A stretch of 64,000 nt of DNA from Cephalotus follicularis (taxonomy: Eukaryota; Streptophyta; Magnoliopsida; Oxalidales; Cephalotaceae). Each line of letters begins with the position of its first letter. Position 1 is the first letter of the stretch. Of the stretch, positions 14,881 through 46,745 are shown piece after piece. Made by a program: the position numbers and the translations under genes. The stretch spans positions 94,157-158,156 of the forward strand of contig BDDD01000351.1 in NCBI GenBank assembly GCA_001972305.1, in the 5' to 3' direction. A model generated the notes under the pieces. That model saw only the letters and a list, made by a program, of their open reading frames with translations. It made no database searches and was not told the origin of the DNA.

Positions 14881-14882
14881 AT

Positions 14883-19116: not shown

Positions 19117-21394
19117 TGTAACGCCTGGGATTTTCGTTAAAGTGTAATATTGTATTCCCGATGTAATTTACGCGTGAATTAATGAGAACCATGTTTTTTC
19201 CCTCTTTTGTGTGTTGAAAGGTTGCAAGAAAGTGTGTGTTGGTGTGTTTTGGTACAGGGGGCAGCCGACTGCCACAGGGAGGCAGCCGACTGGACCCCTT
19301 GTTGAGGGACAACAACCAGCTGCTGTGAGGAAGCAGCCGGCTGGTGTGGGTGATGGCAGAAACAGCCGACTGCCAAGTCGAGGCAGTCGACTGCCATGCG
19401 CCAGACAGCCCACGTGCTGTCAGCTTGAAGTGACAAAAGGGGAGTGTTTTGGTTTATTTGGGCAGATGGCAGAGGAGGGGCCGGGTTCCTCTCATAAACA
19501 CACAGCTTTCCTCTCCTCAATATCCATCCTTCTCTGAGATTTCAAGTGAGTTTGAGAGTGAAAGTGCGTGTGCGTTGAGGACATACAGAGTTTGTGTTGA
19601 AACCAAAAGCTTGGAGGCTTGACAGTGGAAGATCGGACCTGTTGGAGGTTGCTGAACGTGTTAGGGAGTGTAAGAGCCTCGGATTTGGACTTAAAGAGGT
19701 GGATTGCAGCTCCTAACTTGGAGTTCTAAGGTAGGGGGAAAGTCGTTTTCGTACGTAATTTCAACTGTTAATGTTTCTTCAAAATGAAACGCATGTTTAT
19801 GTTATATTGCGAGCCTAGAATGTGTTGTTGCATAAATGTGATGTTTTGGGTTATGTTGGGTGTGTGTTGTGGCTGGTTTTAGCCGCTGGTTTTTACATCT
19901 GCTGCAGAATCCAGCCGACTGCCCCCGTTGGGCAGTCGACTGCTCAATGGGTCCAGCCGACTGTTCTTGAGAGGCCAGTCAACTGCCCATGTGTGTGTCT
20001 TCGAGAAGTGTCTGCAGAGGTTGTGTAGTCGATTGCTATAGGTCAGCAGCCGACTGTTGGGTGTGGACAGCCGACTGTCCTGAGACACAGCCGACTGTCT
20101 AGTGATACAACCGACTGTCCAGTATGTGTAGTCGACTGCCTGGGTTGGGCAGCAGACTATTGTGAGGGGAACAGCCGACTGTTAGGGCCTGTTTTGCCCT
20201 GTGAACATGTGATGCATCGTATATTGTGATGAACTGCTTTGTAAAGCTTTATGAACTGTTTTGAGCATTGTGATTATTGAGTTCGAACTGTTATATCATC
20301 TTTCTGGAAGTGCATTGTAGTTAATGAAAATCATTACTTTACACGAAAATGTATGTTTTTAGAAAATATATATTTTTGAACCGTGAAAATGACTTCCAAA
20401 AACACCGTGAACCGAGTTTTGTGATATTGAGAACCGAGAACCGTGACATCGTGAAAATGAGTTTGTTTTCAAGTATTTTGTTTTATAAATTACTTGGAAA
20501 ATTGTTTTGAGCATCGAGATGACTGTGATTGTGATTGAGTTGACTGTGGTTTGCTGATTGTGATTTTGATTGTGACCGTACTAGTTACGTGGTGGAGATG
20601 CCAGCGATGACTAGTGGTCGGGTTGACTCAGGGGCCAGGAGTTGGCTGGGTGACTCATTGTACCGTGACTTGCTTCGTGCCGTCCGGAGTCGGGGCCGAT
20701 GTCAGGAGTACGACGTCGGGGCCAGGAGTTGGCGACGCTCTTCGTACCTACCATGAACCGTGAACCGAGTATTGTGTAGTCCTTTGGACTTGTTTGAGAC
20801 CGTGAATTGTGACATTGTGACATTGTGACATCGTGGTTGGCATATATACATATACATATACACACACACACATATATTATATATATATATATATATGTAC
20901 GCATCGAGATATAGTATGTACTGCATCATGTTGCATTCATGCTTGGGTTTTGTTGATCTTATGTTGCTTTTATGACTTTGACCGAGTGAGGACAAAGGCT
21001 AACCCCCTACTGTTACAGATTGAAGCAGCGTTTTGGATATCGCTGATCAAGGCTATGTCGGGATGTGATGTGACCGAGTTTATTTTGCTTTAATGTTTTG
21101 TAAAACAGTGTACTTAAAAACATGATGTACTTTGGATTAATGTACTAATGTTTTACTGTTGTTGATCGACTTTTGGATCATGCTTCGTTTGCGGGCTTTT
21201 TATCTATGTTATGCTATGGATGTTGTAGGAAGCATGTGGTATGGGACGCATGGTTCCGTTTGCTTTCAGCTTATATAAATGCTTCCGCAAGTTTGATGTC
21301 TGTTTAAAAGTTTTAAATTTTATCGTTCTCTGTATGAGCTGGATATTTGTTAAATTGCCATGTTGTATGTTGTTAATGCAAGCGGGGTGTGACA
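19117..21394 (+). mobile_element. S2: solo LTR of Tekay-family Gypsy inside SIRE-a
   Basis: It starts TGTAACGCCTGGG and ends GGGGTGTGACA, with a perfect CCTTA duplication (19112-19116 and 21395-21399). It is a diverged relative of the Tekay LTR (25641-28199) in opposite orientation, sharing for example GAGTGAGGACAAAGGCTAAC near 20985. Two clusters of CAGCCGACTG-type motifs lie at about 19260-19410 and 19910-20185. A CA/TA microsatellite is at about 20842-20896. No coding region belongs to it; repeated peptides in its frames come from the motif array. Confidence 0.92.
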
Positions 21395-21399
21395 CCTTA

Positions 21400-21900
21400 G
21401 GACTATGGTATCCTAGAAACTCCTCTTTTGACTTGCATACATATTCAGATACTGATTTTGGAGGTTATAAGGTAGATAGAAAAAGTACTAGTGGCACTTG
21501 CTAATTCTTAGGAAATATGCTCATTTCTTGGTTTAGCAAGAAACAAAATTTGGTGGCACTTTCAACTACCAAAGATAAGTATATTGCAGCAGGAAGTTGT
21601 TGCGCACAAGTCTTATGGATGAAACAACAACTCTTAGATTATGGCTTCAAAATTGAAAATGTGCCTATAAGATGTGATAACACTAACGCAATATGCTTAG
21701 GTAAAAATCTCGTGCGTCACTCTAGAACCAAGCATATAGATATAATATATCATTTTATAAAAAATCACATAGAAAAAGGAGATGTCAAACTAATCTTCGT
21801 GCCTACTCAAGACCAAATTGCGAACATCTTCACTAAACCCCTTGATGAGCAAACCTTTTTTAAATTTAGAATGGAATTGGGTTTATGTGATATTGAATGA
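21400..21900 (+). pseudogene. SIRE-a RNase H, end of pol
   Basis: This continues RT after S2: SDTDFGGYKVDRKSTSGTC, a TAA stop near 21503, then ISWFSKKQNLVALSTT, IRCDNTNAICL and FTKPLDEQTF. The usual acidic STTEAEY block reads STTKDKY, so a catalytic Glu is lost. The frame ends with a TGA at 21898-21900. Confidence 0.9.
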
Positions 21901-22009
21901 TTGATATGTTTATATGATTATGTATTGTTGCTTGATGTCTTCATATGATTGTTCACCAATCACTTCATTCATAAAATCGTTTAATTTTTAAATCGGCAGA
22001 AAACAGACA

Positions 22010-22130
22010 AAAGCGACGACGCTTATATTACAAGCGTCAGCGGTTAGCTCTGCGATTTTAGAGTTTAGTTCTTTGATAAGCGACACCGCTTTACTAAAAG
22101 CGTCGACGCTTATGACGCATTTTATAAAAG
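22010..22130 (+). promoter_or_regulatory. Internal motif cluster and TATA box before the accessory ORF
   Basis: Four to five copies of the SIRE-a LTR motif (GCGACGACGCTT, AAGCGTCAGCGGTTA, AAGCGTCGACGCTTA and variants) lie between the end of pol and TTTATAAAAG at 22121-22130, about 150 bp before the accessory ORF start. The layout mirrors the LTR promoter, so an internal promoter is inferred. Confidence 0.5.
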
Positions 22131-22278
22131 AAAGCATCGTCGTTGGTCATTTTCTATGAAACCCTAACTATTTAAAACGTTTCTCTGGCGATTTTGAGGC
22201 GAAACCAAGTCGAAAAACCACTACTAAACTTCTCATAAACACCATCTCCTATCATCTCTTCATAAAACCTGCTAAAAA

Positions 22279-23337
22279 ATGCCTAGAACAAAGAGTGTTG
22301 AGGTAGGAGAAGGCTCAAGAAAGAGAAAAAGCATTGGAAGAAAAAGAAGGGCTAGAGATGCTGGATATCAAACTCTACAAGAAGAAATATCTCAAGGAAT
22401 AAGGTATCCCCAAGCCTATTTTGAAAGAAAAATCTTAGTAGGAAAAACTCTAGACTTCGATTTCTGCATAGATGAAGGTTTTCCTATTGTAGATTGGCTA
22501 AATGCTCAATAATTAGGACCACTGTTTACAATTAATCTTCCTCATTATCCAGATTTAATGAAGGAATTCTATGCCTATATTCTTATGTGTATCGATTACG
22601 AATTGTTCACTAGGGTGAAAAATAGATATATTGAGATAGATTTTTCCACTCTAGCCTCTATTTTGACAATTCTGTTTGATGGCATTAGAGCTTGGTGCCA
22701 AAGATATTGGGTTGTAGACTGTGTTTTTAATAAGGAAGAATGTGTGCATTTGCTTTTTGGAGAAAATGCACAAGTTTTACAAAAAATGTATTCTAGGAAT
22801 CTTAGGCTTGATCATCGATTCTTGCATCGTGCAATTGCAACCCATATTTTGCCAAAAGCCGGTGATTTTGACGAATTGACCCATATGGAGGCATTTACTA
22901 TGTTCCATATCATTACTGGTAGAAGAATATTTGTGCCACGCCCAATTTCGAACCATATGAAGGCAATGCAATCGAGAGAGAATGCAAGGTTACCCTATAG
23001 CAACATCATAACTAAGATCCTTATGCATTTTGATGTGGACTTAGATGGAGAAGTGCATCATGCACTTCAAGACTCTGACAAGCAAGGAAAAGGAACCTTA
23101 GGGAGAATGGGGTTCAACAAACATAAACGGCTTAGGACATGGGTTCCCAAAGATGAAGATTCGAACAGAATAAATGGAGAAGAAGAAGAGGGAGGAGAAG
23201 AAGAGATGGCTCTGCAAGCTGACCCCGCTCCTAGTTTTAATCTTCCTAATAGTCAGTTTGATGAAATTATGCGAGCTATTAGAGGTTTAGAAATGAGTAT
23301 TCAAAGGGTAGAAAGAACCGGTCAAAAGATAGAGTGA
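22279..23337 (+). pseudogene. SIRE-a 3' accessory ORF (putative plant transposon protein domain plus coiled coil)
   Basis: One frame of 352 codons with a single TAA at 22510-22512. The N-terminus is strongly basic (SRKRKSIGRKRRARD), suggesting a nuclear localisation signal. The middle holds a globular domain (MKEFYAYILMCID, RNLRLDHRFLHRAIATHILP) like the 'putative plant transposon protein' domain. An acidic run (GEEEEGGEEE) follows, then a short amphipathic helix at the end (FDEIMRAIRGLEMSIQRVER). It sits where the env-like ORF lies in SIRE elements, but I see no signal peptide or membrane segment. Its function is unknown. Related copies are at 30564-31676 and 34386-35438. Confidence 0.75.
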
Positions 23338-23961
23338 AGGCAAAAAAGGCTAGAAAGAAAGCTTGTTGAGAGAGGAGTGGTTGGAAACGAAGACATTTCA
23401 CCTCTGTCAAGCCAAGAAGATCAAGCAAATCAAAGAGAAGAACAAGAAGACACAGATGTCATGGGCGATAATGATGAGGACGATCATAGGGATGATTGAG
23501 TTTCAGCTTTTCATATCATCATTCATTTTGCATCTTGTTATGTTTTGTTCCTCGAAAACTTTGAACTTACTATGGTTTGTATTTTGAAAACATTGGATGG
23601 TTTGTTTGGATGATGTATGGAAACATTGGATGTGTACTTTGAAAACTTTGATGATGTGTATGATAACTTATTTAATGCTTTGTTCTTACGATATTGGTAT
23701 GGATGTTTTGTATTATTTGATAACATTCCTCTTATCTTTTTGATGTTATGCAAAAAAGGGGGAGAATGTACTAAGTTGAAAAAATGTACAAGTTGAAATG
23801 AAAAAGGTAACCATTGTCATACTAAGGGGGAGTATGTATCTCTTCGACTTCAACTTGTGTTCATTCAAATTCTTTGCGTCAATATTATATCAAAAATTAA
23901 ATTTTGCAACTTATGCCCATACTGCAGCAAATTTTTGTCATCATCAAAAAGGGGGAGATTA
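23338..23961 (+). other. SIRE-a 3' untranslated region with polypurine tract
   Basis: Non-coding stretch between the accessory ORF and the 3' LTR. It contains AAGGGGGAG words near 23755 and 23823. It ends with the polypurine tract AAAAAGGGGGAGAT at 23948-23961, the primer for plus-strand synthesis. Confidence 0.8.
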
Positions 23962-25187
23962 TTGACATTTATGTCTCAATCCGAATTTTGATGATAACAT
24001 ATTTGCATCTGACATTGTTTCTTTTTGTGCAAGAAAAGTTGACATTGCAAAACAAAACAAAGAACCCTTATTCATTGTAAAATCAAGGCAAAGCGTTGAC
24101 GGTCATAGTGCAACCGTCAGCGCTTAGGTAAACCGACGAGGAGATATGCAAAGCGTCAACAGTTGAGCGTTCAAGACTGAAGTGAAAATGGGCAAACCGT
24201 CGACGGTTAAAAGTAACCGTCAGCGGTTTAGTACAGAGCAAGTTGAGCACTCGAAGTCAAAATTAAAATGTTCAAAGCATCGACGGCCACAAGGAAACTG
24301 TTAGCGCTTAAAAACCAATACGCCAGCGCTTAAGGGAAGCATGTCAGCGGTTTAGTACAGAGATGAATAAAATCATTTGATGGACTTGAAGCGGTGACGC
24401 TCTGAAGAAATCGTCAGCGCTTTAAGCCAAACCGATGACATCAAATTCAAAGCATCAACGGTTAAGTAGGCAAATTCAAATTTAACGAACAACGGTCAAA
24501 TCTAAGCATCGAGCTTAGATTGAATCCATCGACACTTTGTGTGTGGAAAAGCAATCGTGGACAACTTTTTCAACGCCATTTTTAATGCAACATTTCCCAA
24601 TACAACTCTAACGACTCTATGATCTCTACAACGGCTATAAACTGAAGCAATACATAAATAGGAGGAAGAAGCAACATCAAATTACAACAGGATCAACAAG
24701 AACAAGAAATACAGCAACCAATCACAAATAAAATCTGCTCTACTCATATCAAAGCTTCTTTCAAGATTTTTATTGTTATCTTGTGAGCAAATTCTAAGTT
24801 GTTTTAAGTGAGCAAATTAAGTCAAAATCTAACCTTAGAGAGGTTACACAAAACACCAAACACTCTTTGTTTAGTTTGATCATAAAAGGGAGTGAACCAT
24901 TAAGTGAGAAGTGTTTATAGTTGAGTTCAACTACAAGATATTGTAAAGGTGCATCGAATAGTACTTGAAAAGATATTCGGAGACTAGTAGAAACTCAAGG
25001 AAGTCCTTGGGAAATGTGGACGTAGGCAAGAATTTGGCCGAACCACTATAAATCTGTGTTTGCACTCTCGTACTCTCTCTTTACTTATATTTTTATTGAT
25101 AGTCTTTTGATTGTTTGTATTAATTTTAAAGCTTAATCTGAAAAAGTTCATGCAGACTACAATTCACCCCTCTCTTGTAGTATTTCA
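23962..25187 (+). repeat. SIRE-a 3' LTR
   Basis: It is homologous end to end with 13656-14880 but starts TATTGACA instead of TGTTGACA, so the terminal TG is mutated. It carries the same GTCRRC palindrome array (about 24090-24535) and ends TAGTATTTCA before the AAAGG duplication. Many differences from the 5' LTR are transitions. Confidence 0.93.
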
Positions 25188-25192
25188 AAAGG

Positions 25193-25635
25193 GTTGGACC
25201 ATTAACCATCTTTGGAATCACTTCGTTCAGAGCAGTATTAGAGTATTAGGGTATGTTACTTCTTCCTATTTTTCTTTTTAGACGCACCTTATTCTCTTCT
25301 TTTGACTCTAGTCTTTCTTTGACAGGCTCTGAATGATATCCATCTGATGAGGGAAAACTCTAAGGCCGAACATGAAATTATCAACCAGCTTCGAGGAGAG
25401 GTCGCAGAGCTCAAGCAAGCAGCTAATTCGGCCCACGCCCAGCTGGAGGAGGTTCTTGGGGACTAAGAGTCTGTTCTAGAAGAGAAGAGGCAGGCTCTTA
25501 AAGCTTTGTGATCTGCTACAGGCTGCGAATGAAAGGTTCTCTAAGATCTAAGAGTTGGAAGTTGCTCGGACTTAAGTGGCTATGGACAAAGCCCTTATGG
25601 AGTTCAAAGTTTTGGCTGAATTCCATACGTTGATA
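25193..25635 (+). pseudogene. O accessory gene, exons 2 (end) and 3: coiled-coil part
   Basis: After SIRE-a the frame resumes as WTINHLWNHFVQSSIRVL up to about 25250. A 75 bp GT-AG intron follows (GTATGTTACT at 25251, TTTGACAG ending 25325). The next exon (ALNDIHLMREN, LRGEVAELKQAANSAH) is a coiled coil with stops near 25465, 25510, 25549 and 25574. It is interrupted at 25641 by the Tekay element within TLIE. The exact splice phase is uncertain, since a direct join gives a stop. Confidence 0.65.
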
Positions 25636-25640
25636 GAAAC

Positions 25641-28199
25641 TGTCACGCCCCGGTTTCAGGTAGACACACAAAAAGTAGTAAAGGCCATTAACATTAAGAT
25701 TCAGCTAATGCAACATAAAATTTAAACTTTTCAAATAAGATATCAGTTGCGGAAGCATTAAACTCATAAGCTGAAAAATACGTAACGTGCATCCCATACG
25801 GCACGCTACTCAATACAAGTCTGTCATTGTTAAAAGCCCACAAAACTGATCGTGATCCATAATACATAATCCAGTAACATCAGAAAGTTTAGTAAACTGG
25901 AAAACATAGTACACAACACTCAAAGGTACATAACCCCTGGTGAAAACATAAATAAAAACTTGTACTTCGTCCATGTTGATTCCCAAGTCAGTCCACTGCA
26001 TCAATATGTAAAGTAGGGGGTTAGCCTTTGTCCTCACTCGGCTAAGTCATAAAAGTAGTTTGGGACCAAAATTACATGCATGTCATGTGATGTATGCACG
26101 GATAATGCAGTACAGTAGAATACCAGTTTATATAGATATGAAAAAATATATATAATTTAACAGTACGGTAAAATATCAGTAGGAACATATATAAAAAAAT
26201 ATATGTATGCAACAACAGTACAGTGGTAGCCCGACCAGGGCTACATCAACAGGCACAGTAGTGTCCGAGTAGGACCAGTAAACAGTACAGTAAGTCCACA
26301 AAGGGACCACAACAGACAGGTAGTATGTGTAACGTCGCCAACTGCTGGCCCCACGCTAGACTCCCACTTTGGTTCCTTCTCTAGGCAACCAAGCAAGACA
26401 ACAGTACAGTATAGTGAGTTACCCAGCCAACTCCTGGCTCCTAGGTCAACCCTACCACTAGCCAACGCTGGTAGCCTACACCATGCAACTAGTGGCTCAA
26501 ACACAAACACATAAAATTCACAGAGCAAACAGTGAATTTTCACAGTAAACAGTATAGTAAACGGTACAGTAATGATCGCTAGATCAACAACAGGCAGTCC
26601 ATTTCAAAATGTTTTCAAGAGTCATAACATTTGAAATATGTATTTTAAGTAGTGGAAAATACTTTTAAACAGTTCAGTGGGTGTAAATCACTTTCCCAGT
26701 TGTTCAAAAATGTGTTATATCAAATATTTATTTTGTATTCAAAATAGTCATTTTCAGTTTCACATATGCATTTCTAAATTAACGTTGTAATCTAGAAATC
26801 ATAAACAGTTACAATCAGTCAATAAACAGGCAGTAAACAGTATATATGCAATGCATACAAATGCTCTAATGCATCCTAAACGGAGTCGGGATCGTCGCGC
26901 ATCGTTTTAAGCAAGAGAGACCCAAATAGCAGCTTGGCAGTCGGCTGGATTCTTCACCAGTCGGCTGTTCTAAGTAATCAGTACATGAATAGTCGGCTGG
27001 TTCCTTCCACCAGTCAACTTGATCATCAGGCAGTCGGCTGTTATCCTTCAACAGTCGATTGTTTCGGTTGAGCAGTCGGCTGTCTTCCTTCGACAGTCGA
27101 CTGTTCTGGGAAACCAATTACATGCAGTCCAATATACATCATTCAAACGGATCATTGCAAGCATCCATATACATTCTCAAGACAGGATATCATCAATCAG
27201 TCCTCAAAAGGTTCATAGAACACAACAGTAAACATGCATTTTATCTAGCAATTCAATACCAAGATAAAACTCAACATGCATGTACCTAATCTCAATTGAT
27301 TCTCAACAGTAGCCATGGTAAATGGAAAATCAGTAGTCATCATGGTACAACAACTGAAACTCACAGTTCACACGACCATGCATTCAATCATAGGACATCC
27401 AGTAACTTTGAGCTCAAAACGTAAACATAACTTCCCCTACCTTTTGATTCCAAGTTAGGAATCTGTAAGTCCACCGCTTTTAGTACGAACCACAGCTCCT
27501 CCAAGCTTCCCAGGTCCGGTTTGCAAGTCTAGGTTCGAGCTCCAAGCCCCAGTTCCTTTGGTTTCACAGAGAAGGTAAAGTCTCCATTTTCTCCCTCAAA
27601 ATCTCTCTTGTTTTCTCTTCACAGTAGTGTTTCTTCCCCTCGAAGATCATAGGTTCTTTCTGGCTTAGTGGCTCGGCATATGAGGAGAAAGGAAAAGCTT
27701 TAAACGGCTGAAAACTCTCCCTCCTTCATTAACCCAAAAAAGCATGCCCATGTGCCATTTCCTCCACTCTTAGGCAACTCCTAAGCACCATCTGTCAAAA
27801 ACTGCCTCAGATTCAGTCTGGATAGCATGCAGGTGTTGCCTCAGTCCCCTGCATGAGCCGCATGACGCCTAGGTGTTTCCCTACTTCTCCTTGTCAGTCG
27901 TTGCATGTGATTTCATCATATGCAAATATAACAGAGCATAAACCAGCTGGCTGTTCTTCCCTGATAGTCGGCTGTCATCTACGCTGTGGTTACCAGGTGG
28001 CTCGATAGCCCTCCAGTCGGCTGGTCTATTACACCACTCGACTGTCCCTGTCAATATTTCAACAATCATACTTCTAAGTGTTTTGATTTGATTTGCGAAT
28101 CAAAGATATTAGCCGGGAAATTATCTTTCTCATTAATTTAATAACAAGATTACAGTTGGAAATCAAATATTACAACGTGCGAAAACCCCGAGCGTTACA
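25641..28199 (-). repeat. Tekay 3' LTR
   Basis: On the minus strand it starts TGTAACGCTCGGGG and ends GGGCGTGACA. It matches 44137-46745 along its length. CAGTCGGCTG-type motifs cluster at about 26938-27110 and again at 27945-28050, the second cluster close to the LTR start. An ACAGTACAGTAA-rich stretch lies at about 26260-26570. Confidence 0.93.
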
Positions 28200-28210
28200 T
28201 CCACCCCTCC
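28200..28210 (-). other. Tekay polypurine tract
   Basis: The minus strand reads GGAGGGGTGGA immediately before the 3' LTR. Confidence 0.7.
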
Positions 28211-28245
28211 TTCAAGGAATTTCGTCCTCGAAATTAAAAACAATA

Positions 28246-28732: not shown

Positions 28733-28737
28733 TTCTC

Positions 28738-29999
28738 TGTAGGAAGTCTAGAGGGGGGGGGGGGGGGGGGGGTGAATAGACTTATAAAAATAAACTAGCA
28801 AATATCCCAGAAACAAAATAAACACAATCAATCAAAAGCAAAAATTAAAGAGTGTAGGGTTGAGAGAGTTGCAAACAAATATATAGTGGTTCGGCAAACC
28901 GTCTGCGTCCACTCCCCAAGCCCCCCCTTGAGTGTTTCACTAGTTAGCCCCAATCCAGGCTTGAAGTTCCAACCGAGCTTCAACGACTTTTGCTTCAACC
29001 AAGCGAGTACAAGATTGCTCTCTCTGAGCTATACATGAGACAACCTCTCTTGTTTACAAGTAAATTGAAAGTGTTTGAATGGTTTACAAATTCTCAACGA
29101 ATTTGTTTACAATTTTAGCTCAAATCTAACAAAGCTTCTAGTGATTGAGAATGTATAAACGGAAGGCTTTGTAATGTGTGAAATTGCTTCAATATGATCT
29201 CTTTTGGTGTTGAGAGTGTTTAGAATGATGCTTGAGTTGCCTTGAATGATTATCCAACTTGATTGCTTAAAGATCTTTGAAAAATGCTTCACTTTGGCTT
29301 ATAAACATGTGCTCCAACGGATCTATTTTTGAATGTCTGACACAATCCAGTCAGCTGGAATTTCTGGGCAGTCAGCTAGAGTTGATGGCGCGTTTTTCAA
29401 ATATACCCATTGGTGAAGGCAGTCGGCTGCTTCCTCTGGACAATCGGCTGTTTCTCTTGGGCAGTCGGCTGGTGCTTTGTTCCAGTTGGCTGCTTGAGGT
29501 GGATTGGAATTCCAAAAAGCTACTGCCTCATTTTGACACACTTGACAGTCGGCTGGAGATGTTGACAGTCGACTGGTGACCCTTGACAGTCAATTGGTGT
29601 CCTGCTTCAGTCGGCTGGTTGAGGTGGTATGGAGTTCAAAAACCTACTGCCTCATTTTGACACACTTGACAGTTGACTGGACCTCCTTGGCAGTCGGCTG
29701 CTCCCCTGATGCAGTCGGCTGGTGTGGAGTGTACCTGCAGTTACTGGGATTCCTTTAAGAACCAGTCGGCTGTTTAATCCAAACAGTCGACTGCTCAACC
29801 AAAACAGTCGGCTGCCCAACCTGGGCAGTCGGCTGTTTTTGCCTGTATCTGCAGAAATAGCCTTTGCACAACTTTGGACATTTAAACAAGTGAGTATATG
29901 AATTGATGGTTCAGAGAATTATGCATACAGGTATTACATGTTTGTTAATCATCAAAATAACACATGTTAAGGCAATTAACGGGGTGGCAAGGGCCAACA
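28738..29999 (-). repeat. SIRE-b 3' LTR
   Basis: On the minus strand it starts TGTTGGCCCTTGCC and ends CTAGACTTCCTACA. Between 29347 and 29850 are about 15 copies of CAGTCGGCTG or CAGTCGACTG and variants, spaced irregularly. A 20-base G run (28753-28772) near the U5 end replaces the shorter C-run found in other SIRE LTRs. The U5 phrase GGACGCAGAC with GCCGAACCAC is visible near 28890. Confidence 0.9.
28753..28772 (+). repeat. Run of 20 G
   Basis: Uninterrupted G homopolymer within the SIRE-b 3' LTR, corresponding to the C-run of ATTCACCCCCC in SIRE-a. It may be a true expansion or an assembly artefact. Confidence 0.85.
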
Positions 30000-30563: not shown

Positions 30564-31676
30564 TCATGACGATCCGAGAGGGGGGTTTTGTGGAAAAGAA
30601 TTTTGGAACATCTGGATGAGAGTGGCTTGGCCTTCATAGATTTGATCCACTCTCCCTCTAAGGTATTCAATGTCCACTTGTGCCAAGTCCATTCTTGCCT
30701 GAAGAGACTCTAGAGTGGGTCTGCTGCCACTGCTGCTGCTCGCACCAACGTTTGTCCTCATTTCAAACTGTTGAGCATCATCTTCTTCTTCCTCTTCATC
30801 CCCATCTCCTCCGGCTCTCATAGCTGGTTCCCTCGCAGGTTCTCTGCCTCCGACCAGTTGTTTTACCCACACACCATCCTCGAACTTAATATTGCAGCTT
30901 CTAAGCCCGGCTTTGTTAACGAGTTGCTTATGGGATGGTTTAACCTTGTGCTCATTATCGGGTATATCAAGGTTAAGGGATGCTAGGATCCTACTTATAA
31001 GCATTGGGTAGGGAATGTGGTTTATTCTAGACAGCATATGATTAACAATAAGATAGGGAAGGTTCACAAGAGTGCCATTTTTTATGCAAGCCACAAGTTT
31101 AAGGTCTCGCTCGGATGGGAGTGTGTGCGAGTCTTCTCTAGGTAAAAGAGTGTTTGTAATTATTAAGAGGAGAATGTGGGTGGCTATGGGAAGATGGCTA
31201 CTAGTCACGGTCAAGATAGGGTTAAAATCAGGGCGTTCTAAGCAAATACCTATTGCTTCCAATTTCTCAATGTCATTAAAGTGAGTAATGCCGAAATTAG
31301 GTATTCCTAAGGTTTCGGCAATAAGATCCAGGGTTATAGACACCAGGTTACCTAAGATAAAGGATTTGGCTACGCAGGTTGTAGAATTATCAAGATTGGC
31401 ATAAAAAAGTTTCACAAGTCTAGGGTAAATGGTGTGTGATGAGCACAAATATTCAAACCATCCCATTTGCTCTAGCCAAGACTTAATAACAGCAATATTA
31501 CTAACTAGAATATCACTAGAAAGCCATTTTTCATTGTGCAATTTAACGGAATTAAGGACGGAGTGATACCTAGTCTCTTTCTCTTTGGAGAGAAAAAGTT
31601 CGTCATCATAGTCAATCACACCCTGAGATGCCCGTGGTTGCCTTGTTGCTACGCTCTTTCTTCTCTTGGATGCCAT
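30564..31676 (-). CDS. SIRE-b 3' accessory ORF, intact (370 aa)
   Basis: An uninterrupted frame of 370 codons starting at ATG 31676 (MASKRRKSVATRQPRAS), with a basic N-terminus. Residues about 45-270 form a domain (WLSSDILVSNI, LVKLFYANLDN, LGNLVSITLDLIAETLGI, HLPIATHILLLII) like the 'putative plant transposon protein' domain. An acidic run (GDEEEEEDD) follows near residue 290, and a coiled-coil-like C-terminus (LESLQARMDLAQVDIEYLRG). It parallels the ORF at 22279-23337 in layout though the sequence is well diverged. Its position between RNase H and the PPT matches the env-like ORF of SIRE elements, but no signal peptide or transmembrane helix is evident. A motif cluster and TATA box lie upstream. 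Function unknown. Confidence 0.8.
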   Translation of the reverse strand: MASKRRKSVATRQPRASQGVIDYDDELFLSKEKETRYHSVLNSVKLHNEKWLSSDILVSNIAVIKSWLEQMGWFEYLCSSHTIYPRLVKLFYANLDNSTTCVAKSFILGNLVSITLDLIAETLGIPNFGITHFNDIEKLEAIGICLERPDFNPILTVTSSHLPIATHILLLIITNTLLPREDSHTLPSERDLKLVACIKNGTLVNLPYLIVNHMLSRINHIPYPMLISRILASLNLDIPDNEHKVKPSHKQLVNKAGLRSCNIKFEDGVWVKQLVGGREPAREPAMRAGGDGDEEEEEDDAQQFEMRTNVGASSSSGSRPTLESLQARMDLAQVDIEYLRGRVDQIYEGQATLIQMFQNSFPQNPPLGSS

Positions 31677-31764
31677 TTGAATCGATTGCAGCTCGTTTGT
31701 AGAGAGAGTTAGGGTTTTGGGCAGGTTTTGAGAAAGAAGAGGTAAGAGAAAAGAGGGGAAATCG

Positions 31765-31868
31765 GGTTTATAAAACCTGATTCCCGAGCCTCCAGTCGAC
31801 TGGGCTATTTTGTCCAGTCGGCTGGATGTTTAGGCAGTCGACTGGATAATGAGTCCAGTCGGCTGGTT
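31765..31868 (-). promoter_or_regulatory. Internal motif cluster and TATA box before the SIRE-b accessory ORF
   Basis: Four motifs, two CAGTCGACTG and two CAGTCGGCTG, lie in 31792-31866. On the minus strand they are followed by GGTTTTATAAACC (31766-31778), about 90 bp before the accessory ORF ATG. The same motif fills the SIRE-b LTR. An internal promoter is inferred. Confidence 0.5.
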
Positions 31869-36092: not shown

Positions 36093-37415
36093 TGTTGACG
36101 ATTTAGTCTCAATCCTTGTTTTGATGATAACATATTTGCATTTAACAAGTCTACTTAATGTGCAAGATCAATACCAAAGCATTATACCATTTGTAGAAGA
36201 AGACATCGACTTTCAAGGAATAAACATCGATGTACGTACGAAAAAAGTCGACCCCTTTATAAAAGACATCGACTACTTTCATGCCTGAAGTTACAGGACA
36301 ATTTCACATGAAGACATCAACATCTAAAGGCAAAGACATCGACGTCCATACAAAAAGACATCGACTCTCAAAGAAATGACATCGACGACTTTAGTGAAAG
36401 ATCAAATTACAATGAAGACATAGTCCTTCCAGTAATGACATCGACGTCCATACCGAAAGACATCGACTACTTCCAAGAAGACATCGACGTCTTTAGATGC
36501 CAAAGTTACAGGACATTTTCATGCAATGACATCGACGCTTATCAGTAAAGACATCGACGTCCGTACTAAAAACATCGACGTCTTTCCATGGACATCAACG
36601 CCTTTCTAGAGCAACCTGGATTTCCCAAAAAACACATCGACTCTCACAGAGGAAGTCGACGAGATGTTCAAAGTGTCAATACCTGGAGATTTCCCAGAAA
36701 AGACATCGACGCCTTTTGGAAAGAAGTCGACGTCTTTTTAAATGAACAAGACCCGAGAAACCTGGAACGGCTAGTTCAAGCACTACAACGGCTACCAGCT
36801 ACAAAGACATCGACGCCTTTTGAAAGAAGTCGACGTCTTTATACCAGCAGATACAAAAATCAAAGATTGCAACTACACATTTATTAATCAAAAGCTTCCA
36901 CAAATCATGCAACGGCTACAAACCTTTTATGGCTATAAAAGGAAGACAAAAACCTCAGAGAACAGGTGGTGAAGAATATCAAACATACAAAGATCAAGCA
37001 AAACAAACATACAAAAATCAAATCAAAATTCAAAGAGCTTTCTATTCACACTTTAATCTATTTTCTTGTTCTCACTGAATTGAGCAATTATATCTTGTAA
37101 TATCCAACCTGTGAGAGGTTTAGCTACAAACACTATATTTTATACTTCGATTGTAATAGGGGAGTGAACCCTAGTGAATTTGGGGAGTGAACCCAAAGAG
37201 AGTTGTAAGTGATTGAGGTCAATCACAAAGGTGTACCGAATAGCACCCGCAATTGTATTCGGAGAACTAGTGGAAACTCAAGGAGATCCTTGGGAAAAGT
37301 GGACGTAGGCAAGAGTTTGGCCGAACCACTCCAAACTAGTGTTTGCAAATCTCTCTAGCTCTATCTCTTTAAATTATTGTTTACATTGAGATTGTTCATT
37401 ATTATTGTTCATTTC
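36093..37415 (+). repeat. SIRE-c 3' LTR, end missing
   Basis: It starts TGTTGACGATTTAG. Between about 36205 and 36845 are roughly 20 copies of GACATCGACGTC/TCTTT-type motifs. TATAAAAGG at 36934-36942 and a GGACGTAGGCA U5 phrase near 37299 follow. It is the same family as 1-968. The usual ATTCACCCC terminus is absent and SIRE-b sequence starts near 37415. Confidence 0.9.
36934..36942 (+). promoter_or_regulatory. LTR TATA box of SIRE-c
   Basis: TATAAAAGG downstream of the motif array, conserved in the 1-968 copy. Confidence 0.6.
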
Positions 37416-37870: not shown

Positions 37871-37922
37871 ATAATTTTGATCTTGGTACCCATTGTTTAT
37901 TTGGTCCATTAATGTTACATTT

Positions 37923-39480: not shown

Positions 39481-39549
39481 CGACTTTTCCAATAGGGAAA
39501 ATCGTCACCACTGGTACCTTAAATTCGGAGACATCGTCATGGTTTCTAG

Positions 39550-39837
39550 TTTCTGTAGATACAGGCAAAAACAACCGACTGCCCAGGTTGGGCAGCCGAC
39601 TGTTTTGGTTGAGCAGTCGACTATTTGGATTAAACAGCCGACTGGTTCTTGAAGGAATCCATACGACTGGCAGTCGGCTGCTCCCCTGATGCAGTCGGCT
39701 GGTGTGGAGGGTACCTGCAGTTGCTGGGATTCCTTCAAGAACCAGTCGGCTGTTTAATCCAAATAGTCGACTGCTCAACCAAAACAGTCGGCTGCCCAAC
39801 CTGGGCAGTCGGCTATTTTTGCCTGTACCTACAGAAA
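39550..39837. repeat. 111 bp inverted repeat in the SIRE-b 5' LTR
   Basis: Arm 39550-39660 is the reverse complement of arm 39727-39837 with about three mismatches. The loop is 66 bp. Each arm carries four to five CAGTCGGCTG-type motifs and corresponds to LTR sequence at about 29740-29851. The inner arm is inverted relative to a normal LTR. Confidence 0.93.
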
Positions 39838-39979
39838 TAGCCTTTGCACAACTTTGGACATTAAAACAAGTGAGTATATGAATTGATGGTTCAGAGAATT
39901 ATGCATACAGGTATTACATGTTTATTAAACATCGAAATAACACATGTTAAGGCAATTAATGGGGTGGCAAGGGCCAACA
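39661..39979 (-). repeat. SIRE-b 5' LTR, only the first part kept
   Basis: It matches the U3 start of the 3' LTR (29684-29999). The rest of U3, R, U5 and the PBS are missing; the inverted copy (39550-39660) and then degraded gag follow. It lacks the TATA region. Confidence 0.85.
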
Positions 39980-39984
39980 TTCTC

Positions 39985-40995
39985 TTTAATAATCCTGATC
40001 TTTTCTGAAGTTTCCTCCACTAACTCAGTCCCGAGTAAAGGTCGCTCCCCAGCCTCATCCCAACAAACAGGAGATCTGCACTTCCTCCCTTACAGTGCTT
40101 CAAACGGTGCCATGTCGATACTGGAATGATAGCTGTTATTATAAGAGAACTCTATCAAAGGAATGTGATCCACCCATGTACCAGCAAAGTCAATAACGCA
40201 AGCCCGTAGCATATCCTCCAAGGTCTGGATGGTACGCTCAGACTGCCCATCGGTCTGAGGGTGAAAGGCAGTACTCAGGTTCAGCTTCGTCCCGAAAGCT
40301 GTTTGAAATCTCTTCCAAAAGTTGGAAGTGAAGATGGCATCTCTATCATATACGATGCTAACTGGAACACCGTGTAGCCTCCCTATATCCTTCACATACA
40401 AACGAGTTAGCTTACTCGCAGAATCAGTAACGGGTGTATGAAGAAAGTGCGCTGATTTGGTGAGTCTATCTGCGATAACCCACACGGCGTTGTGACGGTT
40501 CTGAGTCAGAGGAAAACCCAAAACAAAATCCATTGTAACATGTTCCCACTTCCACTCTGGAATTGGTAAAGGCTGTAATAACCCTGCCGGTCTCTGGTGC
40601 TCGGCTTTAACTGTTTGGCAAGTCAAACACCTTGCCACATACTCGACTATCTCTCGTTTCATGCCAAGACACCAGTAATCCCTCCTCATGTCTTGGTACA
40701 TTTTTGTGCTACCAGGGTGAATGTTGTATTGAGATCTATGGGCCCCGTAAAGCAACTCACTCTTCAACCCATGCTCATTCGGAAGACACACCCATCCCCA
40801 AAATCTTAAGACACCATCGGCATGTACCCGAAAATCAGACTCCGAGCCCACATTCTCCCGAATCTTTTGCAATTCAGGATCGTGTGCTTGAGCGCTCTTT
40901 ATTTCGTCAAGAAAAACCGGTTGTACCCTCATGCTAGCCATAAAGACTCCAGGTGACTGATTAAACGGAAACCACTCTTGGAAGTCTTCTAACAT
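39985..40995 (-). pseudogene. Tekay integrase, N-terminal and core part
   Basis: The minus-strand frame has a zinc region ending [16 protein letters not shown] and the core with [26 protein letters not shown] and [19 protein letters not shown], so the DDE acids are present. It ends [18 protein letters not shown] replaces the Tyr codon of the usual ALYGRKCRSP block near 40090, after which the frame reads CRSPVCWDEAGERP up to SIRE-b at 39984. Confidence 0.92.
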
Positions 40996-41004
40996 CTTCC
41001 ATTG

Positions 41005-41316
41005 CTACACCATCGCACTGGCAATCATAGCCTTGTGACTCAAGGCATCAGCGACCATATTCGCTTTCCCCGGGTGGTACTGAACACTGCAATCATAATC
41101 GTTAAAGAATTCTACCCATATTCGTTGCCTCATGTTCAGTGTATCCTGACAGAACAGGTACCTCAAACTCTTATGATCTGTAAAGATCTCAAACTGCGCC
41201 CCATAAAGATAGTGCCTCCACTTCTGAAGGGCGAAGATAATAGCTGCAAGTTCAAGGTCATGTGTCGGGTAGTTTTCTTCGTATGGCTTTAGCTTCCTGG
41301 AAGCATAAGCAATCAC
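41005..41316 (-). pseudogene. Tekay RNase H
   Basis: Typical Gypsy RNase [58 protein letters not shown] at 41002-41004 separates it from the integrase and another stop near 41325 separates it from RT; all are in line with one original pol frame. Confidence 0.92.
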
Positions 41317-41325
41317 TCTTCCTCG

Positions 41326-42225
41326 CTACATCATCACGCAGCCCAAGCCCTTACCCGATGCATCACTATAGACTGCAAAGCCCTTATTACCATCAGGTAA
41401 TGCCAAGATAGGAGCGGAAACTAACCGATCCTTCAGTTCACGGAAACTAGCTTCACAATCTTCATCCCAGACAAATAAGGTCTTCTTCTGGGCCAGTCTA
41501 GTCAAAGGCACGGCTATCGTTGAAAAGTTCTGGATAAACCTCCTGTAATGTCCTGCCAAGCCAAGAAAACTACGTACCTCCATCACATTCTTCGGTTGTG
41601 GCCAGTCTCGCACTACTTCAGTCTTTGACGGATCCACCGCCAAGCCTTCCCCAGATACGATGTGACCAAGAAAGATCACATGATCAAGCCAGAATTCACA
41701 CTTGCCAAACTTGGTGTACAACCGATGCTCTCTGAGAACCTGCAATACCAGCCTCAGATGATGAGTGTGTTCCTCCTCACTCCTTGAATATACCAGTATG
41801 TCATCAATAAACACTACGACAAGCTGATCCAGGTATGGTCGAAATACGTCATTCATAAATGACATGAAAGCTGTCGGTGCATTGGTAACACCACACGGCA
41901 TCACCAAGAACTCGTAATGACCATACCGTGTCCGAAAGACAGTCTTCTTAATGTCTCCCTCCCATACTCTCAGCTGGTGATAACCCGATCTCAAATCGAG
42001 CTTGGAAAACACCATTGATCCTTGCAACTGGTCAGACAAATCCTCAATGTGGGGTAAAGGATACTTGTTCTTGATAGTTGCCTTGTTCAACATTCTGTAG
42101 TCGATACAAAGTCTCATCGACCCATCTTTCTTCTTGACAAATAACACCGGTGCACCCCACGGAGAAACACTGGGTCTAACAAAACCCTTATCAATCAGGT
42201 CTTGTAACTGTAACTTCAGCTCTCA
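41326..42225 (-). pseudogene. Tekay reverse transcriptase
   Basis: Long open stretch with [35 protein letters not shown], the catalytic [17 protein letters not shown] and [17 protein letters not shown], ending [14 protein letters not shown]. The upstream piece with [11 protein letters not shown] lies at about 42150-42225, with a stop at about 42222. Nearly all RT residues look functional. Confidence 0.93.
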
Positions 42226-42286
42226 CAACTCGGCAGGAGCCATCCGATAAGGTGATTTAGAGATAGGAGCTGTTCCAGGAACAAGA

Positions 42287-42850
42287 TCAATAACAAACTC
42301 CATACTCCTCCTCGGTGGTATCAAGAAATACATCCGGAAATTCACACACAACCTGAATTTCCTCCATACTCAAACCTTTCTCTTTCCTTCTGTCAATTAC
42401 ATAAGCCAGGTATCCCTCGCATCCCTTCTCTAGATACTTCGATGCTCGAATAAAGGATATGATCGGTGTCGAGAACCCTTTGTCTCCCTTGAACTGGAAT
42501 GTCATTCCGTCGGGTAGACAAAAATCCACAATTTTATTATAACAATCCATGTGAGCACGGTGTGCTGATAGCCAATCCATCCCCAGTATAACATCGAAGT
42601 CACGGATAGGCAGTACTATCAAATCTGCATACAAAGAAATGTCTGCCATAGACATCTCACAACTCCTATATATCGAGTCAGTGTACATAGAAGTCCCAAT
42701 CGGTGTACTCACATCAAGCATATATGACATGTAGTCAGTGGTGACATCTAAACAAGATACAAAACGTGCAGATATAAAAGAATGCGATGCTCCAGAATCC
42801 ATCAACACTCTAGCAGAAAACCCATATATATACAGAGTACCTCCAACAAC
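42287..42850 (-). pseudogene. Tekay protease
   Basis: It contains VLMDSGASHSFIS (active site DSG) and VLPIRDFDVILGMDWLSAHR, the retroviral-protease type of Gypsy elements, and leads into RT through [12 protein letters not shown]. The frame is open for 173 codons. Confidence 0.92.
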
Positions 42851-42869
42851 AGAAGTCGACTATGGAACC

Positions 42870-44024
42870 TCTGTCTGAGCAAGTACAAAACTCTACCTTT
42901 TGCGACGCCCTTGCCGGTGTCCTTCCTCTATGACAGTCCCGCCGCCGCACCACTACTACTTCCTGGCCCGGTAGGTGCTATAGCTGAACTCTTCAGACAG
43001 TCTTTCACCGAATGACCAGGTGCCCGACACCTCAAGTACCAGCCATTAAACCTCCAGAGCGACCACAATATTAACAACCTCCGGATCTAGCATTAATCCC
43101 TTGGCTGGGAGAACCCTATGAAGCTGTCTGCTGAGATTTGCTCTTGGACGACTTTGTCAGAGAACCACCATCCTTCCATTTTGACAATGCTGGTCTGGAC
43201 TGTGTAGGACTCTGTTTATTCTGTTGTGCGCGAGCTCTCTCAGCCCGGTCTTCACTGGATATGCTCTCCAGTAGTCTTGCTTTCTGTGAAACCTCCACAA
43301 AAGTTCCCAGTTCCATAGCCCTAATTCTTGATCGAAGGTTCGGCCGTAGACCTCTTAGAAACCTCTGTATCTTCTTCACTTCATCAGCTACCAGATAGGG
43401 TGAATGTCTGACTAGCTCCATGAATCTTTCTTGATACTCTGTCACCGTCATCTCTCCCTATCGCAACTCCAAGAGCTCTATCTCCTATCGCTCTTGTTCA
43501 ATCCGTGGAACATAGGTCTCCAAGAACTCTGTCTGGAATCTGCCCCAAGTGTTGTCAAGCCTCTGAGATTCCCATTTTGTTTTGACCATTTCCCACCAAT
43601 GAGTGGCCTCACCCCACAGACGGTATACAGCAAACTTCAGTTTTTGATTGTCAGTACAGTCCATCACTTCAAAGATTTTTTCCAAATCCTGCAGCCATCT
43701 CTCAGCAATGGTGGCATCAAGTTCCCCCCAGAAACTGGGTGGATTCTGCCTCATGAACCTTTCAATGTCCCTCACAAACTGGTTACCATCCTCTCCCGGG
43801 CAGTGGTCAGGAGCTCTATGTTGCGGCCGAGCTTGCACGTAGTACTGGCGCATCTCTTCCGCATTCGCCATATTAAAGGCCATATGTTGTTGAAAATAAA
43901 CCACAATTCGGGTCATCGGATCTCTCTCATCCTGGGGGACATTCATCCCTTGCGGAACATTCGCTTCATCAGGGGCATTGGCTCCAACAGCTCTAGCCCT
44001 AGCACGTGTTCTCCTTCGGTCCAT
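42870..44024 (-). pseudogene. Tekay gag
   Basis: The start is ATG 44024 (MDRRRTRARARAVGAN). The retrotransposon gag domain has NPPSFWGELDATIAERWLQD, GEATHWWEMVK and FQTEFLETYVP. Two in-frame stops near 43485 and 43461 interrupt QER and LLELR; both fit Gln codons changed by C-to-T. The frame goes on through FMELVRHSPYLVADEVKKIQ to a Ser/Lys-rich tail. The single zinc knuckle near 43020 (RCRAPGHSVKDC) is partly degraded. Confidence 0.9.
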
Positions 44025-44121
44025 TGGTTCCTATAAGAAGGATGACGATTAGTCACGACTTTAGGAAAACAATTCATTAATTCCCAAGGAAAATATCCTA
44101 GCTAGGCATATATGGAATATA

Positions 44122-44132
44122 CTCTGATACCA
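44122..44132 (-). other. Tekay primer binding site
   Basis: The minus strand reads TGGTATCAGAG a few bases after the 5' LTR end: initiator tRNA-Met type. Confidence 0.85.
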
Positions 44133-44136
44133 CTCT

Positions 44137-46745
44137 TGTCACGGCCCGGTTTCAGGTAGACACACAAAAAGTGGTAAAGGCCATTAACATTAAGATCCAG
44201 CTCATGTAAAAACCATAAAACTTAAACTTTTCTAATAAGATATCAGTTGCAGAAACATTAAACTCATAAGCTGAAAAACACGTAACATGCATCCCATAAT
44301 GCACGCTACTCAATACAAGTCTGTCATTGTTAAAAGCCCACAAAATGGAGCGTGATCCATAATACATTATCTAGTAACATCATAAAGTTTAGTAAACTGG
44401 AAAATACAATACACAACAATCAAAAGGACATAACCCCTGGTGAAAACATAAATAAAAACTTGTATTTCGTCCATGTTGATTCCCAAGCCAGTCCACTGCA
44501 TCAATCTGTAAAGTAGGGGGTTAGCCTTTGTCCTCACTCGGCTAAGTCATAAAAGTAGTTTGGGACCAAAATTACATACATGTCATGTGATGTATGCATG
44601 GATGATGCAGTACAGTAGAATACCAGTTTATATATATATGAAAAAATATATATAATTTAACAGTATGGTAAAATATCAGTAGGAACATATATAAAAAAAT
44701 ATATGTATGCAAAAATAGTACAGTGGTAGCCCGGGCAGGGCTACATCAACAGGAACAGTAGTGTCCGAGTAGGACCAGTAAACAGTACAGTAAGTCCACA
44801 AAGGGACCATAACAGGCAGGCAGTATGTGTAACGTCGCCAACTCCTGGCCCCACCCTACACTCCCACTTCGGTTCCTTCTCCAGGCAACCAAGCAAGACA
44901 ATAGTACAGTACAGTGAGTTACCCAGCCAACTCCTGGCTCCTAGGTCAACCCTACCACTAGTCAATGCTGGCAGCCTCCGCCATGCAACTAGTGGCTCAA
45001 ACACAAACACATAAAATTCACAGAGCAAATAGTGAATTGTCACAGTAACAGTACAGTAAACGGTACAGTAATGATCATTAGATCAACAACAGGCAGTCCA
45101 TTTCAAAATGTTTTCAAGAGTCATAACATTTGAAATATGTATTTTAAGTAGTGAAAAATACTTTTAAACACTTCAGTGGGTGGAAATCACTTTCCCAGTT
45201 GTTCGAAAATGTGTTATATCAAATATCTATTTTGTATTCAAAATAGTCATTTTCAGTTTCACATATGCATTTCTAAATTAACGTTGTAATCTAGAAATCA
45301 TAAACAGTTATAATCAGTCAATAAACAGGCAGTAAACAGTACATATGCAATGCATACAAATGCTCTAATGAATCTTAAATGGAGTCGGGATCGTCGCGCA
45401 TCGTTTTAAGCAAGAAAGACCCAAACAACAGCTTGGCAATTGACTGGATTCTTCACCAGTCGGTTGTTCTAAGTAATCAGTACATGAATAGTCAGCTGGT
45501 TCCTTCCACCAGTCGACTTGTTCATCAGGCAGTCGACTGTTATCCTTCAACAGTCGATTGTTTCAGTTGAGCAGTCGGTTGTCTTCCTTCGATAGTCAAC
45601 TGTTCTGGGAAACCATTTACATGCAGTCCAATATACATCATTCAAACGGATCATTGCAATCATCCATATACATTCTCAAGGCAGGATAACATCAATCAGT
45701 CCTCAAAAGGTTCATAGAACACAACAGTAAACATGCATTTTATCCAGCAATTCAATACCAAGATAAAACTCAACATGCATGTACCTAATCTCAATTGATT
45801 CTCAATAGTAGGCATGGTAGATGGAAAATCAGTAGTAATCATGGTACAACAACTGAAACTCACAGTTCACACGACCATGCATTCAATCATAGGACATCCA
45901 GTAACTTTGAGCTCAAAACACAAACATAACTTCCCCTACCTTTTGATTCCAAGTTAGGAATCTGTAAGTCCACCTCTTTTAGTATGAACCACAGCTCCTC
46001 CAAGCTTCCCAGGTCTGGTTTGCAAGTCCAGGTTCGAGTTCTAGGCCCCAGTTCCTTTGGTTTCACAGAGGAGGTAAAGTCTCCCTTTTCTCCCTCAAAA
46101 TCTCTCTTGTTTTCTCTTCACAATAGTGTTTCTTCCCCTCAAAGATCACAGGTTCTTTCTGGCTTAGTGGCTCGGCAGATGAGGAGAAAGGAGAAGCTTT
46201 AAACAGCTGAAAACTCTCCCTCCTTCATTAACCCGAAAAAGCATGCCCATGTGCCATTTCCTCTACTCTTTGGAAACTTCTAAGCACCATCTATCAAAAA
46301 CTGCCTCAGATTCGGTCTGGACAGCATGCAGGTGTTACCTCAGTCCCCTGCATGAGCAGCATGACACAGGTGTCACCCCACTTCTCCTTGTCAGTCGTTA
46401 CATGTGATTTTGTCACATGCAAATAAAACAGAGCATAAACCAATCGGCTGTTCTTCCCTGACAGTCGGCTGTCCTCTAGGCTGTTGTTGCCAGGTGGCTC
46501 GACAGCCCTCCAGTCGGCTGGTTCGTCCCACCAGTCCACAATTCCGTTAAACGGTCCACCAGTCAGCTGGTCTATTACACCAGTCGACTGTCCCTGTCAA
46601 TATTTCTACAATCACACTTCTAAGTGTTTTGATTTGATTTGCGAATCAAAGATATTAGCCGGGAAATTATCTTTCTCATTAATTTAATAACAAGATTACA
46701 TTTGGAAATCAAATATTACAACGTGCGAAAACCCCGAGCGTTACA
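44137..46745 (-). repeat. Tekay 5' LTR
   Basis: Homologous to 25641-28199. CAGTCGGCTG-type motifs cluster at about 45430-45605 and 46440-46590. The second cluster has extra copies compared with the 3' LTR (an added CAGTCGGCTGGTTCG unit near 46510), so the arrays change copy number between sister LTRs. Confidence 0.93.

Follow-up and report, generated by a model that had tools for sequence, protein, structure and literature searches.

Phased arrays of a palindromic box in Copia and Gypsy long terminal repeats of Cephalotus follicularis

A stretch of 64,000 nucleotides from Cephalotus follicularis (GenBank assembly GCA_001972305.1, contig BDDD01000351.1, positions 94,157 to 158,156 of the forward strand), referred to here as the window, contains Copia and Gypsy retrotransposons whose unrelated long terminal repeats (LTRs) carry many copies of one short palindromic box. 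The question raised by this locus is why such LTRs should share it. The original prediction had located the box in a SIRE-type Copia element (SIRE-b), a Tekay-type Gypsy element and a Gypsy solo LTR (S2), and offered three possibilities: independent gain, exchange between elements or selection by a common host factor. The lineage name Tekay is the label given in that prediction. The Copia elements of the window had an RVT_2 domain (Copia reverse transcriptase) and an open reading frame (ORF) matching PF20167 between pol and the 3' LTR, as in SIRE, while the Gypsy element had a strong SH3_Tf2-1 match and two Chromo matches (E 0.0024 and 0.0004) that fell under the Pfam cut-off.

The box, its spacing and its carriers

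Boxes were present at all of the predicted positions in the S2, Tekay-type and SIRE-b LTRs, and these three elements were the carriers of the box form designated dialect A in the window. There were 22 exact copies of CAGTCGGCTG, 9 of CAGTCGACTG and 11 of CAGCCGACTG; with CAGCCGGCTG the total was 43, and all 43 were confined to stretches summing to 4,266 bp. In 200 resamples of the window by a first-order Markov model, the mean was 0.075 exact copies and the maximum was 2. The predicted list of sites was incomplete, in that it lacked the array at 31793-31865 and two further dialects of the box that are equally shared.

In the 1.577-Gb assembly, CAGTCGGCTG occurred at 177,392 sites compared with 1,330 for the reversed word (133-fold), and CAGTCGACTG at 197,377 sites compared with 939 (210-fold). 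The possibility that the motif is equally frequent in random intergenic DNA was not borne out, since 20 preset 10-kb stretches of the genome had 150 box sites with at most one mismatch and 25 sites for the reversed words. Another site lay within 130 bp of 147 of the 150 and only 3 were isolated, while 10 of the 20 stretches had none. The motif is thus arrayed and is no general feature of the genome DNA. A scan of viral contigs gave no match to a phased CAGTCGACTG pair.

The arrays had been described as irregularly spaced, but most successive boxes were separated by a regular step. The spacing was 20-22 nt in 79/109 cases in SIRE arrays, 89/108 in Tekay-type arrays and 13/18 in arrays of a second, Tork-like Copia lineage (9, 18 and 2 arrays, respectively, with locus L034 excluded), and the largest phased arrays reached 22 boxes. 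Pairs of exact boxes, counted strand-wise so that two-palindrome pairs were scored on both strands at either gap, had 111,360 matches genome-wide at a gap of 11 nt, compared with 325 for the reversed control at that gap; at a gap of 16 nt there were 560. The second base of the spacer was never G in the deduplicated spacers of SIRE (0/26) or Tekay-type arrays (0/35); avoidance of the same base beside the box in both superfamilies is suggestive of a single binding protein or of closely related proteins. In the unrearranged arrays of the window, each exact asymmetric copy read CAGCCGACTG on the sense strand of the element. A fixed sense polarity was rejected as a universal rule because the Gypsy array at L016 was reversed and the Tork-like arrays were mixed.

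Unrelated Copia and Gypsy LTRs also shared the box outside the window. Arrays at fetched loci were assigned by tblastn with the window proteins and by nucleotide comparison; 12 fetched loci are a non-random choice, made around one-strand motif matches on contig C1, and L002-L006 and L008 were dropped because they overlap L001 and L007. The box was found in SIRE LTRs at L001, L007, L009, L013, L032, L035 and L040, of which L001 and L007 possibly belong to a single element as its LTR pair. Box-bearing Gypsy LTRs lay beside Gypsy pol or gag at L014, L016, L024, L025 (second element), L029 and L030; at L010, L021, L031, L033 and L036 they were recognised because their nucleotide sequences were like S2, Tekay or one another. 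At L028 a Copia reverse transcriptase 31% identical to that of SIRE-b was followed by an array in the LTR and by a TATAAA box, and L023 had an LTR of the same family. The reverse transcriptase-RNase H sequence of L028 probably resembles that of Tork/Tnt1, and the label Tork-like rests on this presumed resemblance. At L034 a Gypsy-type dialect-A LTR (1-1324) abutted a SIRE PF20167 ORF (1324-2000), a nested insertion or a recombination junction.

Dialects, promoter position and conservation

Weight matrices of 26 author-chosen arrays, seeded on TCGA, CCGA or TCGG, symmetrised and cut at three groups, gave three palindrome dialects, A (CAGYCGACTG), B (AAGACRTCGAYGTCTT) and C (AAGCGTCGACGCTT), each of which occurred in both SIRE and Tekay-type LTRs. 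Dialect A comprised 4 SIRE, 5 Tekay-type and 1 Tork-like array, and dialect B comprised 5 SIRE arrays and 1 Tekay-type array. The members of dialect C were the SIRE-a LTR and ORF promoter, two more SIRE ORF promoters, three Tekay-type arrays from two elements and three others. When the tree was cut at four or five groups dialect C divided, while A and B remained whole, and a core-free scan also yielded the same box types. The dialect C word AAGCGTCGACGC had 73,291 strand-wise matches in the genome compared with 78 for its control. Symmetrised matrices are no independent proof of palindromy; CAGTCGACTG and AAGCGTCGACGCTT are, however, palindromic as they stand in the arrays, and the TCGA centre common to the boxes is visible there directly.

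The dialects occupied equivalent positions. Boxes of the other dialects lay at the same element positions in SIRE-a and SIRE-c. Tekay-type LTRs have two array slots, one close to the start of the LTR (c1) and another approximately 0.8-1.2 kb in (c2), and those of L025 and L019 (the second L019 LTR being Tekay-type by resemblance only) carried the SIRE-a and SIRE-c box types in both slots. An apparent further dialect was seen at L022 (7437-7774), where GGGCTGAGC boxes mostly recurred every 19-23 nt.

The arrays of SIRE elements were placed close to TATA boxes. The TATAA core started 43-44 nt past the last box in all eight unrearranged dialect-A SIRE U3 arrays, four of them identified by the stricter regular expression TATA[AT]A and four counted on the array flanks; the rearranged array at 39572-39815 was excluded. 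In the SIRE-b LTR the array ended 44 nt upstream of TATAAG. In both Tork-like arrays (2/2) a TATA sequence lay 12 nt past the last box. These counts come from related families and are not independent events. Boxes were also found upstream of the ORF in the ENV position of SIRE-b (31793-31865) and SIRE-a (22011-22111); the two PF20167 ORFs were 24% identical and were paired with different dialects.

Three further SIRE ORF promoters (L053, L056 and L057) had a GCGTTAACGC/GCGTCAACGC variant of dialect C followed by a TATATA box and then the PF20167 ORF; L054 and L055, for which the ORF start had been placed too far in, were excluded. A first look at PF20167 genome-wide gave 13,073 candidates; all 150 that were scored exceeded the cut-off, many with open frames of at least 300 amino acids.

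Comparison of SIRE arrays indicated that boxes can change less than the spacers between them. Outer box positions had changed in 8/88 cases and spacers in 68/234 between the window and L013 (P 1e-4), and in 4/87 and 40/236 cases between L013 and L035 (P 0.003). There was little difference between the window and L009 (4/102 box, 22/359 spacer) or between L001 and L007 (1/75 and 3/257). Spacers inside one array were mostly unlike while the boxes agreed. In the Tekay-type LTR pair the boxes were unprotected (7/96, compared with 126/2396 for spacers) and box CpG had changed faster (5/32 compared with 126/2396, P 0.03). Recent copies had boxes without protection. The pattern fits selection acting for as long as a lineage lives, with neutral decay of copies once they have inserted.

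Shared factors, exchange and competing explanations

Spacers of 11 nt, 63 from SIRE and 58 from Tekay-type arrays before removal of near-duplicates, were compared in both orientations with a column-shuffled null. Arrays that were of uncertain lineage or not needed were left out (L010, L014:182, L028:4691, L030, L034, L037, L038, L039 and the other two of L016). Spacer pairs between SIRE and Tekay-type arrays that were alike at 8 or more of 11 positions numbered 14 (6.5 expected, P 0.009), at 9 or more, 5 (0.87 expected, P 0.005) and at 10, 1 (0.07 expected, P 0.07); with near-duplicates kept there were 21 similar pairs and 2.5 expected. An edge matching the form TACAGGACATTCCAG was common to the arrays of SIRE L035 and Gypsy L024, in an orientation inverted with respect to the elements. 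The spacer similarity, with the array edge as a possible further sign, is modest evidence that part of the sharing arose through exchange, and array pieces have probably passed between elements. The suggestion that spacers of the two families might align, showing capture by nested transposition, held weakly for scattered spacers and failed for a captured block. For S2, which has dialect A and sits inside SIRE-a with dialect C, a simple capture through nesting was rejected. Most SIRE and Tekay-type spacers differ, and accounting for the boxes requires common selection.

The arrays are interpreted, with moderate confidence and from sequence comparisons, as promoter or enhancer modules for one or more shared DNA-binding factors, with some exchange of array pieces. 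They would act as cis-regulatory modules of the LTR promoters. Each box would be a dyad of about 14 bp read by a sequence-specific, dimeric or symmetric DNA-binding protein, and the 21-bp step, equal to two helix turns, could allow many molecules to occupy one face of the DNA. The c1 and c2 arrays of Tekay-type LTRs probably flank the promoter. Use of the same nuclear factor or factors by SIRE, Tekay-type and Tork-like elements would explain why the same dialects are found in them. The factor is probably encoded by the host and could be several related proteins that all read TCGA at the centre of the box but differ in the outer bases they prefer; this would account for the three dialects. Dialect A contains GCCGAC in its asymmetric form and GTCGAC in its symmetric form, sequences reminiscent of DREB/CBF sites, a presumed resemblance that we take as a lead only; the DRE/CRT core for DREB/CBF factors is RCCGAC. 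Among the three possibilities offered originally, selection by a common factor was the best supported, by 1) the identical box, 2) the excluded spacer base, 3) the 21-nt step, 4) the constraint in two SIRE comparisons and 5) the placement upstream of TATA boxes in SIRE and Tork-like LTRs. Exchange was supported in part, by the likeness of spacers over the null and by the common array edge.

Several observations weigh against this interpretation. The TCGA centre was partly built into the dialect clustering by the seeding, and the Gypsy case for dialect B consists of one element, L025. Longer spacings showed no clear agreement with the helical repeat: those lying no more than 1.5 nt from a multiple of 10.5 nt made up 14/26 in SIRE and 1/4 in Tork-like arrays (approximately 29% expected); in Tekay-type arrays the figure was 4/18, and helical phasing of their longer spacings was rejected. 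No Tekay-type array lay directly upstream of a clear TATA box, and the L013 ORF array had no TATA-like box in the adjoining 55 nt. Clear constraint was limited to two of the six SIRE pairs, both of which include L013, and two pairs of intermediate divergence showed little difference (L001-L040, 4/75 box and 23/251 spacer; L007-L040, 6/81 and 26/261); homogenisation of arrays could imitate selection on boxes. The spacer test covered 10 SIRE and 18 Tekay-type arrays from which related copies were removed by a similarity rule only, and across the five cut-offs tried the P values were 0.009, 0.009, 0.005, 0.07 and 1, a modest excess.

Convergence, in which each lineage gained boxes alone through slippage and selection for one host factor with no exchange of sequence, is unlikely but deserves serious attention. 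Most spacers differ, as it would predict, and within-family alignments of motif-masked arrays (z up to 156) dwarf those across families (median z 1.3 for 54 SIRE-Tekay pairs, of which 6 lay above all 60 shuffles, in a set that includes L034, a Gypsy-type LTR mislabelled SIRE). Convergence does not readily account for the excess of similar spacers seen with cut-offs from 7 to 9 of 11 (P 0.005-0.009) or for the edge shared by L035 and L024, and three matched dialects would require three parallel convergences. A bolder form of sharing, proposed tentatively, is that the dialects are a code moving between superfamilies. Within one nucleus, SIRE, Tekay-type and Tork-like elements would exchange or copy entire palindrome arrays and would track diversifying readers, possibly encoded by SIRE, such that the transcriptional or anti-silencing machinery of one family is pirated by others.

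It is rather improbable that the boxes bind a protein encoded by a retrotransposon, such as the product of the SIRE PF20167 ORF acting in trans as a VANC-like activator or anti-silencer, with the Tekay-type and Tork-like arrays as mimics. The SIRE-b ORF does have its own boxes and TATA, the diverged SIRE-a and SIRE-b ORFs go with different dialects, and VANC proteins and their motifs offer a precedent (PMC5735166, PMC10398659). The pairing of dialect and ORF was, however, seen in very few subfamilies, and another report (PMC2829016) describes boxes in four Sireviruses that lack ENV. Nor was a DNA-binding fold indicated by the AlphaFold2 model of the PF20167 protein, which was of low confidence (mean pLDDT 39.6), or by comparison with solved structures, in which the only matches were two PilJ chains (E 0.026) over the C-terminal helix. 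That the arrays are non-functional tandem repeats, satellite-like products of slippage spread by transposition, is very improbable. The tandem steps of about 21 nt, the local duplications present and the faster change of box CpG in the Tekay-type LTR pair, with recent copies lacking box protection, would agree with such an origin; the agreement of boxes within arrays whose spacers mostly differ, the lower rate of change of boxes in two diverged SIRE pairs the recurrence of the same boxes in three lineages and their position next to TATA sequences would not.

Known counterparts and features of the window

The SIRE half of these observations is of a known kind. Sirevirus RM (repeated motif) boxes are described by Bousios et al. 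2010 (PMC2829016) as palindromes present in many copies in the upper LTR half, immediately before a conserved TATA, with extra copies before the ENV gene. The same paper reports them as specific to Sireviruses and absent from the classic Ty1/copia elements compared, leaves their function open, and gives a CGG-CCG signature for 12 of 13 published RM boxes, Tnd-1 being without it. The Cephalotus boxes are likewise palindromic, lie shortly upstream of the LTR TATA and have extra copies before the ORF in the ENV position; the 17 boxes of the SIRE-b 3' LTR compare with an RM criterion of at least 8 copies per element, grouped in the upper LTR half. They differ from RM boxes in that the common forms carry at most one half of CGG-CCG, the step is 21 nt, three dialects coexist in one genome and the boxes also occur in Tekay-type Gypsy and Tork-like Copia LTRs. 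What is new is the presence of the same boxes in two slots of Tekay-type Gypsy LTRs and in a Tork-like Copia LTR.

CpG islands of variable placement have been described in Del (Tekay) LTRs (PMC4029996). The arrays resemble them in being rich in CpG and in lying in the LTRs of that Gypsy lineage; when the main text of that report was searched by word, neither "palindrom" nor "tandem" was found. Heat-shock sites, like DREB/CBF sites, are shared by stress-activated plant retrotransposons. The present case is similar in that Copia and Gypsy elements of a single genome would offer sites to one family of host factors. In maize, stress-activated elements of both superfamilies are said to contain DREB/CBF motifs (PMC11656987); that statement concerns motif matches, in contrast to the phased, dialect-matched arrays found here. 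VANC target motifs of Arabidopsis VANDAL elements lie in non-coding parts of transposons, are read by a sequence-specific protein and diverge between families; VANDAL elements are, however, DNA transposons with an element-encoded reader, whereas here a retrotransposon motif crosses superfamilies. Among the open-access literature matches listed, none described one palindrome array, or matching dialects, as common to Copia and Gypsy LTRs, and among the matches listed for the literal motif there was no paper on plant retrotransposons by title.

The finding of matched boxes in chromovirus-like Gypsy elements and a second Copia lineage would make a cross-family regulatory code of what had been a peculiarity of a single clade. 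The sharing makes two ideas testable, a common activator of rival elements and a code coevolving with a host or element protein. With approximately 375,000 exact matches in 1.58 Gb, the two most frequent forms of one dialect are also a large reservoir of potential binding sites through which host genes could be rewired.

Table 1. Box arrays, their carrier elements and associated TATA boxes in the window
Feature	Position	Strand	Remarks
SIRE LTR fragment, dialect-B array	232..830	-	left window edge; TATA box 132-141
SIRE-a 5' LTR	13658..14881	+	dialect-C array ~13817-14213; TATA-like box 14354-14364
S2, Tekay/Del-type Gypsy solo LTR	19117..21394	+	inside SIRE-a pol region; assigned by ends, CCTTA 5-bp target duplication on both flanks and interrupted SIRE-a homology
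S2 array c1	19262..19393	+	slot near LTR start; 5 boxes, at most 1 mismatch
S2 array c2	19912..20181	+	slot ~800 bp into LTR; 10 boxes, at most 1 mismatch
Dialect-C boxes upstream of SIRE-a PF20167 ORF	22011..22111	+	TATA-like box 22168-22179
Tekay-type Gypsy 3' LTR	25641..28199	-	pairs with 44137-46745 at 92.5%; adjoins SH3_Tf2-1 and weak Chromo match
Tekay 3' LTR array c2	26938..27103	-	8 boxes, 5 exact
Tekay 3' LTR array c1	27944..28044	-	4 boxes, 1 exact
SIRE-b 3' LTR	28738..29999	-	inside Tekay element; target duplication TTCTC at 28733-28737, 39980-39984
SIRE-b LTR TATA-like box, TTTATAAGCC	29296..29305	-	slightly more than 40 nt downstream of array
SIRE-b U3 array	29348..29835	-	17 boxes, at most 2 mismatches; 11 exact
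SIRE-b ORF in ENV position	30564..31676	-	370 amino acids; PF20167, Putative plant transposon protein
TATA box	31765..31776	-	20 nt downstream of fifth array
Fifth array	31793..31865	-	4 exact boxes; upstream of SIRE-b 3' ORF
SIRE-c U3 array, dialect B (AAGACRTCGAYGTCTT)	36200..36842	+	TATA box 36933-36942
Array in SIRE-b 5' LTR remnant	39572..39815	-	LTR truncated, inverted-duplicated
Tekay-type Gypsy 5' LTR	44137..46745	-	LTR pair
Tekay 5' LTR array c2	45437..45602	-	8 boxes, 1 exact
Tekay 5' LTR array c1	46441..46590	-	5 boxes, 3 exact

The array in the right LTR of SIRE-b was partly contained in a 120-bp inverted duplication (39550-39669 and 39718-39837, 94% complementary) whose arms are 48 nt apart, and a run of 20 G residues (28753-28772) lay close to the left end of the SIRE-b LTR. 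A further element of the window, with an LTR pair at 54974-55804 and 63167-63999 (93%), was without dialect-A boxes. A tandem array of a 25-nt unit, CTCCCTTAGGAGTCTTCTTTGATTT, at 47508-47732 is possibly another box family, and positions 58195-58604 held approximately 20 copies of a 20-nt unit, GAGGTCTGCCTTCAAGTAC.

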